Assembly: GCF_000746845.1 (NCBI RefSeq)
Contig: NZ_KN050846.1
Span: 317,394-381,393, forward strand
Length of the DNA stretch: 64,000 nucleotides
Direction of reading: 5' to 3'
From: Altibacter lentus
GTDB lineage: Bacteria; Bacteroidota; Bacteroidia; Flavobacteriales; Flavobacteriaceae
The notes beneath the pieces were generated by a model. It had not been told where the DNA came from, ran no database searches, and worked only from the letters and a program-made list of their open reading frames with translations. This document shows, piece after piece, positions 39,186-41,655 of the stretch (positions within the stretch are counted from its first letter, which is position 1; every line of letters starts with the position of its first letter). The position numbers and the translations under genes are program-made.

Positions 39186-40856
39186 CTATTTTTGATACGC
39201 ATCGGCATGTACTTTTGCTACTGCACGGCCACTGGGATCATTCATATTCTTAAAGCTCTCATCCCATTCTAAGGCAATTGGACTGCTACACGCTACGCTG
39301 GGAACCGAAGGAACACTTAAGGCAGCTGCATCGCTAGGGAAGTGTTCTTCGAAGATGGACCGGTAGAAGAACTCCTCTTTGCTTGTAGGCGTTTGCAAGG
39401 GGAATCGGTATTGCGCATTCGCCATTTGTTCATCGGTAACTTGCTCATTCACCATTTCCTTCAAGGTATCTATCCAACTGTATCCCACACCATCACTAAA
39501 CTGTTCTTTCTGTCGCCAAGCGACGCTGGCAGGGAGCATGTCTTCAAATGCTTTGCGAAGCACCCATTTTTCCATACGTTCGCCGTTGATCATCTTATCA
39601 TTGGGATTGATTCGCATAGCTACATCCATAAACTCTTTGTCCAAGAATGGCACACGACCTTCGATTCCCCAGGAAGCGAGTGATTTATTGGCCCGCAAAC
39701 AATCGTACATGTGGAGTTTCTCTAACTTTCGCACCGTCTCTTTATGAAATTCTTCAGCATTTGGCGCTTTGTGAAAGTATAAATACCCCCCAAAGATCTC
39801 ATCGCTTCCCTCTCCGGACAGCACCATCTTTATCCCCATGGCTTTAATAGCTCTTGCCATTAGGTACATTGGGGTCGAGGCGCGAATTGTAGTGATGTCG
39901 TAAGTTTCTAAATGATAGATGACATCACGCAATGCGTCGATACCCTCTTGGATGGTAAACTTGATCTCATGGTGGACCGTTTCCAGATGATCGGCGACCT
40001 TTTGGGCTGCGGCAAGATCCGGAGAACCTTCCAGTCCTATCGCAAAAGAATGGAGTTGCGGCCACCAAGCCTTGTCTTGGTCATCACTTTCAATACGTTT
40101 TTCGGCATATTTCTTTGCAATGGCTGATGTTATGGAAGAGTCCAGTCCGCCGGAAAGTAATACGCCATACGGTACGTCACTCATCAATTGACGATGCACC
40201 GCATCTTCCAAGGCTTTCCGAAGTGCCGCAATACTGGTCTCATTATCCTTAACCGCCTCATACGCCATCCAATCCCGTTGGTACCATCGTTTTAGTGTTC
40301 CTTCGTCGCTATCCAGGTAATGTCCGGGAGGGAAAAGTTCGATCTTTGTACAAACCCCTTCCAACGCCTTTAATTCGGATGCGACATAGAAGGTACCGTC
40401 CTTATCCCAACCCATATACAGCGGGATGATACCCATGTGGTCACGCGCCACTAAATATGCATTCCGTTCAACATCGTAGATGGCAAAGCCAAAAATACCG
40501 TTCAGTTCGTCCAGAAAAGTATTCCCTTTTTCTTTATAAAGTGCCAGGATCACTTCGCAGTCGCTTTTTGTTTGAAACTCGTAGCGTCCTTCAAATTGTT
40601 TCCGAAGACTTTGGTGGTTATAGATCTCTCCATTGGCAGCCAGGACAAGATTCCTATCTGGAGAGAACAGGGGCTGTTTCCCCGAAGTAGGATCCACGAT
40701 TGCAAGACGTTCGTGGGCCAGGATCGCTTTTTCGGAATCGAAGATCCCGCTCCAATCGGGACCGCGATGACGAATACATTTGGCCATTTCCAATAGTTGG
40801 GGCCGTAATTTTTCAGAAGGTTGCTTCAGTTCGAAGGCGCATACAATACCACACAT
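39186..40856 (-). CDS. asnB: Asparagine synthase (glutamine-hydrolysing)
   Basis: 556 residues that make asparagine from aspartate, ATP and glutamine. Met removal exposes the catalytic Cys2 of the Ntn glutaminase (MCGIVCAFE), followed by IRHRGPDWSG, AHERLAIVDP and NGEIYNH. The synthetase domain has the ATP P-loop VLLSGGLDSSI, LSGEGSDEIFGGYLYFH and EGRVPFLDKEF. This is the long E. coli AsnB type. A leader ORF with nine Asn codons and a terminator precede it, so its expression is likely controlled by asparaginyl-tRNA charging. Confidence 0.96.
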   Translation of the reverse strand: MCGIVCAFELKQPSEKLRPQLLEMAKCIRHRGPDWSGIFDSEKAILAHERLAIVDPTSGKQPLFSPDRNLVLAANGEIYNHQSLRKQFEGRYEFQTKSDCEVILALYKEKGNTFLDELNGIFGFAIYDVERNAYLVARDHMGIIPLYMGWDKDGTFYVASELKALEGVCTKIELFPPGHYLDSDEGTLKRWYQRDWMAYEAVKDNETSIAALRKALEDAVHRQLMSDVPYGVLLSGGLDSSITSAIAKKYAEKRIESDDQDKAWWPQLHSFAIGLEGSPDLAAAQKVADHLETVHHEIKFTIQEGIDALRDVIYHLETYDITTIRASTPMYLMARAIKAMGIKMVLSGEGSDEIFGGYLYFHKAPNAEEFHKETVRKLEKLHMYDCLRANKSLASWGIEGRVPFLDKEFMDVAMRINPNDKMINGERMEKWVLRKAFEDMLPASVAWRQKEQFSDGVGYSWIDTLKEMVNEQVTDEQMANAQYRFPLQTPTSKEEFFYRSIFEEHFPSDAAALSVPSVPSVACSSPIALEWDESFKNMNDPSGRAVAKVHADAYQK

Positions 40857-40948
40857 AATTTCTATATTTTATTTGGTTAGTTAATATTTCATTCGATACT
40901 TCCTTGCTAAGGAAGTAACTATCTCATTGGACACAGAACATTTAGGCA

Positions 40949-40982
40949 CAAAAAAACCCGTCAGGTTGGAAACTTGACGGGT
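40949..40982 (-). terminator. Intrinsic terminator of the asnB attenuator
   Basis: Arms 40982-40975 (ACCCGTCA) and 40963-40956 (TGACGGGT), with extra pairing below the 3-base loop (GTT / AAC), followed by seven T on the minus strand (A-run 40950-40956). It lies about 90 bp before the asnB ATG. Confidence 0.92.
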
Positions 40983-41007
40983 CTTAAGTATAGGGTACAA
41001 GTTTCTG

Positions 41008-41064
41008 TTACGTCCGGGCGTTATTATTATTATTATTATTATTATTTACTAGGATCAAAAACAT
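41008..41064 (-). CDS. asnB leader peptide (nine consecutive Asn)
   Basis: An 18-codon ORF: MFLILV, then nine Asn (eight AAT and one AAC, the AAC last), then ART and TAA at 41010-41008. It lies between a promoter-like sequence and the terminator upstream of asparagine synthetase. Nine codons for the product of the controlled enzyme are hard to explain by chance. The AAT repeat is a microsatellite and could change length by slippage without changing the frame, which could tune the sensor. Confidence 0.75.
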   Translation of the reverse strand: MFLILVNNNNNNNNNART

Positions 41065-41130
41065 GACTTGTTTCTTTTCGTCTTGAATATCAAATATTAG
41101 ACAATTTTTTCAGCTTTCCAAAAAAAAACA

Positions 41131-41655
41131 TCAATACTTAAAAACCAAGAGTGCTTCAGGGAGCTCTTTTTTAGGGATCGGCCTCCCATCAATGCTGTAG
41201 TAGGCCATTTGAATGTACGCCTGATTTCTCAATTTTACCTGATATATCTGTCGTTTTGGTTCGTAAAGCGTGAATAGCCGGGCGCTTTCAACTTCATAAT
41301 CGTCAAAGGCTTTCCGAACCTGTATCATGATATCGGATGGGATAATTGCGGTTTCCAGAAACTTTGCATCGTAGAACAGCATACCATTGGGTAAGTAGGT
41401 AGCGAAATGAGTGTTGGTACTAAAGCTATCGCCAAATTGTGATATGTAACGCACGGGTGCATCATCGCCGGCAGTGAGTCCGCGATCGATGAACCACTCA
41501 TTTACATAACCATCCGGAAAGTTGGCCTTTTGTGAAGCGAGCACGACTTGAGGTACTTCGGCTTCAGGAATGGGATCATTGTTCAATGGGGTTTCCTGAG
41601 CAATCATAAAACCCGCTATGTAAAGGGAACAAAGGAGTAGCGTAATTTTTTTCAT
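41131..41655 (-). CDS. Secreted PepSY-like protein
   Basis: 174 residues with a Sec signal (1-19, ending MIAQ). The mature part has two repeats of the pattern VPQVVLASQKANFPDGYVNEW ... IMIQVRKAFDDYEVESARLF, which resemble the PepSY-like (BLIP-type) folds common in Bacteroidota. Proposed roles are periplasmic inhibitor or sensor, none shown here. The stop precedes the asnB leader promoter by only a few bases, so that promoter is tucked against this gene's 3' end. The asnB terminator could also end read-through from it. Confidence 0.7.
   Translation of the reverse strand: MKKITLLLCSLYIAGFMIAQETPLNNDPIPEAEVPQVVLASQKANFPDGYVNEWFIDRGLTAGDDAPVRYISQFGDSFSTNTHFATYLPNGMLFYDAKFLETAIIPSDIMIQVRKAFDDYEVESARLFTLYEPKRQIYQVKLRNQAYIQMAYYSIDGRPIPKKELPEALLVFKY

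Follow-up and report, generated by a model that had tools for sequence, protein, structure and literature searches.

Putative asparagine-codon attenuation of asnB in Altibacter lentus and related Flavobacteriaceae

Ribosome-mediated attenuation is the classic mechanism of control for tryptophan and histidine. In the Firmicutes, genes for asparagine supply are controlled by T-boxes, which respond to the charging of tRNA-Asn through a choice between terminator and antiterminator. Closer to the locus described here, Bacteroid-trp RNA is presumably a Trp leader attenuator, its name pointing to the trp genes. This RNA (RF01692) was described as a candidate cis-regulatory motif of the Bacteroidetes (Weinberg 2010, PMC2864571). 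Moreover, the main text of PMC9723704 presents strong indications that amino-acid biosynthesis operons of Flavobacterium psychrophilum are preceded by leader-peptide attenuators. A relevant prediction paper, to judge by its citation in PMC4833913, is Lopatovskaya 2010. Our coverage of the literature, which is incomplete, yielded no Asn-specific leader attenuator.

The window, by which we mean the whole stretch of DNA that was analysed, comprises 64,000 nt of Altibacter lentus (NZ_KN050846.1), and all coordinates of the element lie on its minus strand. A first-pass annotation of this DNA had described, upstream of asnB, a promoter-like TTTTG-N20-AATATTTG, an 18-codon leader with nine consecutive Asn codons, the string GAAACTTG two bases after the leader stop, its complement CAAGTTTC in the 5′ arm of an intrinsic terminator, and a tail of seven T. 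Each of these is present, and the features of the locus are as follows.

41119 to 41123, minus strand: -33-like promoter element TTTTG of the Bacteroidota type, putative, from sequence and its 20-nt spacing to the -7-like element
41091 to 41098, minus strand: -7-like promoter element AATATTTG (TAnnTTTG type), with a similar element in homologues
41060 to 41071, minus strand: segment 1, ACAAGT just 5′ of the leader ATG plus UGUU over the start codon, candidate 5′ side of the clamp (complementarity, MFE structure, covariation)
41008 to 41064, minus strand: leader peptide ORF MFLILVNNNNNNNNNART, 18 codons plus stop, ATG at 41064 to TAA at 41008 (sequence; 46/46 homologues)
41020 to 41046, minus strand: nine consecutive Asn codons (codons 7-15; eight AAT, one AAC), proposed to be regulatory (sequence and homologues)
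40998 to 41005, minus strand: region 2, GAAACTTG, antiterminator 5′ arm, pairing with region 3
40969 to 40976, minus strand: region 3, CAAGTTTC, antiterminator 3′ arm, within the terminator 5′ arm and loop (covariation)
40956 to 40982, minus strand: intrinsic terminator hairpin ACCCGTCAAGTTTCCAACCTGACGGGT (-16.7 kcal/mol; covariation)
40950 to 40956, minus strand: terminator U-run of seven T (at least four T in every aligned homologue)
39186 to 40856, minus strand: asnB, asparagine synthetase B, 556 aa, the putatively controlled gene (NF006949, 944 bits)

The leader stop is followed by CA and then directly by region 2. Six Asn codons in a row are found once in the window and in 0/100 dinucleotide shuffles, whilst the RNA from leader stop to terminator folds at -17.6 kcal/mol (z = -3.8), with 0/200 shuffles equally stable. 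A generic sigma-70 and terminator scan returned chance-level sites alone and missed the terminator, because its stem is interrupted. The strongest argument against chance is the conservation of the arrangement in 46 distinct elements.

A family search found a single AsnB in the genome of the window and asnS is present, whilst the search for asnA in this genome gave no match; AsnB is the only recognised asparagine synthetase of the A. lentus genome. Since AsnB is the sole synthetase found and asnS is present, free asparagine made by AsnB would feed tRNA-Asn, and feedback through tRNA charging therefore makes sense. Between the terminator and asnB lies a near-perfect hairpin, ACTTCCTT-AGC-AAGGAAGT, at 40898-40916. 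On the other side of the element, the upstream gene (41131-41655) encodes a 174-residue, probably secreted protein that gave no NCBIfam match, and a 2-oxoacid dehydrogenase gene lies beyond it.

Our first set of homologues comprised 107 asnB upstream regions from Flavobacteriaceae. The element is present in 26 of them, and in all 26 carriers an Asn-rich ORF stops just 5′ of CARAAACTTGT or a close variant. A covariance model, R1, was built from the part downstream of the leader and run over 400 genomes of the family. Its strong matches lay at asnB wherever inspected; weak matches, of about 50 bits and below, were mostly ordinary terminators, several of them matching both strands, and the E-values, which come from a short calibration, are rough. 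The divergent elements of two genomes, G131 and G238, are real despite weak R1 scores. After this search the total stood at 46 distinct elements, all upstream of asnB. The first-pass annotation had proposed looking upstream of asnB in relatives for a poly-Asn ORF with covarying stems, and across these 46 elements the outcome is strongly positive.

The 46 leaders are 11-19 aa long with 3-10 Asn each (MNNNNLNNNNYT and MIRFRLNNNNNNNNNNELP being among the extreme cases), and asparagine accounts for 309 of their 701 residues (44%). These Asn codons are divided between AAT (227) and AAC (82), with 11 Lys codons (AAA plus AAG) in the same leaders. Asparagine is thus kept through both of its codons and lysine codons are rare; therefore, selection acts on the amino acid and not on an AAT repeat. 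The first NNN starts at codon 7 in 30/46 leaders. A -7 element of the AT[ACT]TTT[GA] type is found in 36/46 homologues, lying 20-31 nt 5′ of the leader ATG in all but two. Moreover, the gap between terminator and asnB is 18-33 nt in 18/46 elements, which leaves scarcely any space, if any, for a second promoter.

Both hairpins leave a covariation signal. In the alignment of homologues, compensatory changes on both sides back six consensus pairs of the terminator stem, and the homologous terminators average -19.2 kcal/mol, each with a U-run of at least four T. The antiterminator AAACTTG:CAAGTTT is paired in 98.4% of cells over 24 sequences, a value that 0/500 shuffles reach and that slid controls fall far short of; the outer pair of this helix is A-U in 13 sequences and G-C in 6. 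As the antiterminator shares the 5′ arm of the terminator, the two hairpins exclude each other. A permutation test compared cognate with swapped duplex energies in all elements and then in 16 representatives less than 80% alike, and cognate arms were the stronger in both sets. The thinned counts were 0/5000 for the terminator (3:4) and 6/5000 for the antiterminator (2:3), to be read with the caveat that relatedness inflates shuffle tests and that thinning to 16 elements lowers this effect and does not remove it. In the A1 alignment the spacer that separates region 2 from region 3 falls into two conserved types, TACCCTATA and TCG(C/A)GATATA, and is perhaps a polymerase pause signal.

In 40/46 elements the last Asn codon has its first base 21 nt from the CTTG core of region 2. 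Two elements (L032 and L145) have one codon fewer after the Asn run, offset by three extra nucleotides after the stop, and so keep the 21 nt. We modelled the ribosome with a hand-set footprint of 31 nt, 18 nt behind and 13 nt ahead of the first A-site base. Such a ribosome leaves region 2 free when at the Asn run and covers it when at the stop. The modelled probability of the 2:3 pairing in the nascent RNA is 0.92 with the ribosome at the first Asn codon and 0.04 with it at the leader stop, these values resting on equilibrium energies and not on kinetics. The attenuation logic put forward in the first-pass annotation, in which region 2 is free at the Asn run and covered at the stop, thus fits the predicted geometry. 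Aligned homologues bring out a leader, its Asn codons, the terminator and antiterminator pairings, a fixed spacing and a place before asnB.

We propose, with a probability of roughly 0.92, that the element controls asnB by ribosome-mediated transcription attenuation and senses charged tRNA-Asn; the gene would very probably be switched on when asparagine for translation runs short. Here we infer that the leader is translated, that the ribosome stalls and that asparagine supply sets the response, as well as the part played by the clamp. Transcription would start about 20 nt 5′ of the leader ATG, and a ribosome would trail RNA polymerase along the 18-codon leader. With ample Asn-tRNA the ribosome would reach the leader stop, where its front edge would mask region 2 (GAAACTTG); region 3 would then pair with segment 4 as the terminator, and transcription would stop 5′ of asnB. 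After ribosome release, or on an untranslated leader, region 2 would pair with the leader start region (the clamp), again allowing termination. When Asn-tRNA is scarce the ribosome would stall within the Asn run (codons 7-15) and leave region 2 exposed; the latter would pair with region 3 ahead of the synthesis of segment 4, no terminator would form and asnB would be transcribed.

The clamp is a pairing of the sequence before and over the leader start, ACAAGUnnAUGYUAC, with the complementary GUARCAnAAACUUGU of the stop region and region 2. In the window, segment 1 complements both ACUUGU within region 2 and, at the leader stop, AACA, and the pairing is part of the MFE structure. CAAG falls within the last 14 nt 5′ of the leader start in 28/46 elements, compared with 1/50 control gene starts in the window. 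It could be argued that terminator and antiterminator suffice and that the start-stop pairing arises incidentally from repeated ACAAGTTT-like sequences or from the needs of translation initiation, and three elements (L011, L032 and L145; -0.5 to -4 kcal/mol) are indeed essentially without a clamp, a fourth (L004) has a weak one, and the inner-clamp pairs taken alone give a modest signal (246/10000 overall, 77/10000 thinned). However, whole cognate clamp duplexes average -10.0 kcal/mol against -8.7 kcal/mol when swapped (0/5000 permutations for all elements, 6/5000 thinned), and four elements show region-1 changes that match those of their region 2, namely L009 (AGCUUGU/ACAAGCU), L019 (GAACUUGU/ACAGGUUC), L143 (ACCUU/AAGGU) and L150 (CUUGUGC/GCACAAG). 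We therefore think a by-product unlikely, if still worth weighing, and regard the start-stop clamp as a probable protector (1:2) helix at an unusual place. We rate it as probable and not as essential because its inner part gives the weaker signal and three elements do without it. The earlier suggestion that the geometry works with no separate protector hairpin therefore needs correcting, although a few elements lack the clamp.

Two further explanations concern the element as a whole. The hairpin could be the plain terminator of an upstream gene, either 41131-41655 or the 2-oxoacid dehydrogenase gene, with the poly-Asn ORF as a harmless AAT microsatellite: the element does lie just 3′ of a gene on the same strand, slippage easily makes AAT runs, and the length of the run differs among relatives. 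A microsatellite would nevertheless be hard to reconcile with AAC at 82 of the 309 Asn codons, with leaders in which other residues split the Asn codons (MLRSNNFNTNNSNNGKP, MFLNKNSNYQP), or with an ORF stop at a fixed distance from region 2, whilst the covariation of antiterminator and clamp speaks against a plain terminator. Moreover, in the 18 of 46 elements whose terminator ends at most 33 nt from asnB, that gene must therefore be read through the terminator, and we consider this explanation very improbable. The same RNA might instead carry another sensor (a small-molecule riboswitch, a T-box for tRNA-Asn or an RNA-binding protein), the ORF being incidental. No Rfam family reached threshold across the window, however, and a permissive scan of 40850-41200 returned chance-level sRNA matches well below gathering scores; neither the gathering nor the permissive scan of the window matched a T-box riboswitch core or specifier loop, or the Bacteroid-trp RNA covariance model RF01692. 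Gram-positive asparagine genes use T-boxes, and no role has been assigned to the conserved spacer that follows region 2 (TCGCGATATA or TACCCTATA), which would suit a further sensor; against this, a T-box would need a larger conserved part than the element has, and nothing in the element is as consistent as the Asn codons and their spacing. Consequently, we give a sensor other than the translating ribosome very little credence.

Running R1 over 247 genomes of the class returned the genome of the window, one weak match from the same family and nothing else; therefore, the element seems to be confined to Flavobacteriaceae. Most asnB genes of the family are without it, and it is therefore not needed for asnB in general. 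In G001, a genome of the same genus that is 95% complete, the search for AsnB gave no match. A first-pass AsnB tree, built with FastTree only, contained a clade of 39 (support 98), 38 of them labelled carriers, and the 39th (L006) also carries the element. Two other candidate carriers, L095 and L191, were rejected on inspection. The corrected tree, with the deep-branching carriers L205 and L206 added, has two changes of state. On this tree the element is characteristic of a single AsnB clade of Flavobacteriaceae and occurs also in two deep-branching genomes; it may be old in the family with later loss, or may have arisen or moved twice. The two divergent elements (L205 and L206, of G131 and G238), which lie deep in the family AsnB tree, have the leaders MFLNYSNNNNNNYYPRR and MFSYLINNKNNNNYYAMP, and their GCAC/GTGC changes match between region 1 and region 2. 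The attenuator reading of the first-pass annotation is largely right, but the element is not general to Flavobacteriaceae. In sister lineages such as Maribacter, Flavobacterium and Winogradskyella an operator-like pattern precedes asnB instead, namely gTTttaAatTgtAA, then TGTTTtataattgaAA, then cATaTTTG. Some asnB regions without the attenuator (e.g. L013, L042 and L047) have operator-like repeats at the promoter, GTTnnAAATTGTAAC and TGTTTTATAATTGAAA, with a spacing of about 31 bp, which suggests that a DNA-binding regulator controls asnB in regions of this type.

Asn-rich leaders also precede asnA in another family of the same class (f50), where 22 of the 31 loci scanned have one (L193, L197, L210, L213, L215, L217, L218, L220-L231 and L233-L235). 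In leaders such as MRHFRNNLQNNNSNNLIRDWKAIAPLEN the string GGAAGGC lies inside the ORF and is followed by a strong terminator, AAAGCCTTCC...GGAAGGCTTTTTT. Counted from its first base, the last Asn codon lies 16 nt from GGAAGGC in 17 loci and 15 nt from it in three. In one genus this string is read in another frame, and therefore the RNA, not the tail of the peptide, is what is conserved. An Rfam scan of sampled asnA loci from this family matched no family. These leaders share with the asnB element an Asn-rich leader, an antiterminator arm and an intrinsic terminator before the gene; they differ in that the gene is asnA, region 2 lies within the ORF and no sequence similarity is evident. With a second, unrelated attenuator before asnA, Asn specificity would therefore have evolved at least twice. 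Upstream of asnB in a third family (locus L181 of genome G526, family f17), an MKTQTHNNNRFFALASR leader is followed by textbook 1:2, 2:3 and 3:4 segments and a terminator; this is possibly a third independent Asn attenuator, known from a single example, with order and family searches around G526 covering seven genomes.

We lean, by somewhat better than even odds, towards a joint claim: that Bacteroidota have repeatedly and independently evolved Asn-codon attenuation to control asparagine synthesis (at asnB in Flavobacteriaceae, at asnA in another family and possibly at asnB in a third), and that the Flavobacteriaceae add a new architecture in which the leader start pairs with both the stop region and the arm of the antiterminator, giving a third, self-closed state that would favour termination and hide the leader start codon once the ribosome has left. 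Asparagine would thereby join the amino acids sensed by leader translation, and would do so in a phylum whose attenuators have received little study. In two unrelated families 15-17 nt separate the last control codon from the antiterminator arm, a natural test system whose tight spacing lets the effect of ribosome position on an RNA switch be studied. Moreover, relatives without the attenuator have an operator-like DNA motif before asnB, pointing to a swap in the mode of control.

To judge by the literature covered, what is new here is the amino acid (Asn), the target genes and the unusual placement of the protector; the mechanism itself is known. With the trp, his, phe, thr, ilv and leu attenuators of Proteobacteria and Actinobacteria the element shares a short leader ORF with repeated codons for the pathway product, a mutually exclusive antiterminator and terminator, a gene downstream and the segments 1:2, 2:3 and 3:4. 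Unlike these attenuators, it is specific for Asn and has asnB as its single target, its region 2 follows the leader stop and would be masked by a terminating ribosome, and its segment 1 is the leader start region instead of a stretch around the control codons. Bacteroid-trp RNA differs in amino acid and gene, and RF01692 has no match in the window. The attenuators of F. psychrophilum belong to the same bacterial family, but the main text of PMC9723704 names no asparagine, asnB or Asn leader, and the Flavobacterium asnB regions that we examined are without the element. Lastly, a T-box binds tRNA directly, with neither translation nor a leader ORF, whereas the asnB element has no T-box match and would read the charging of tRNA-Asn through the ribosome.
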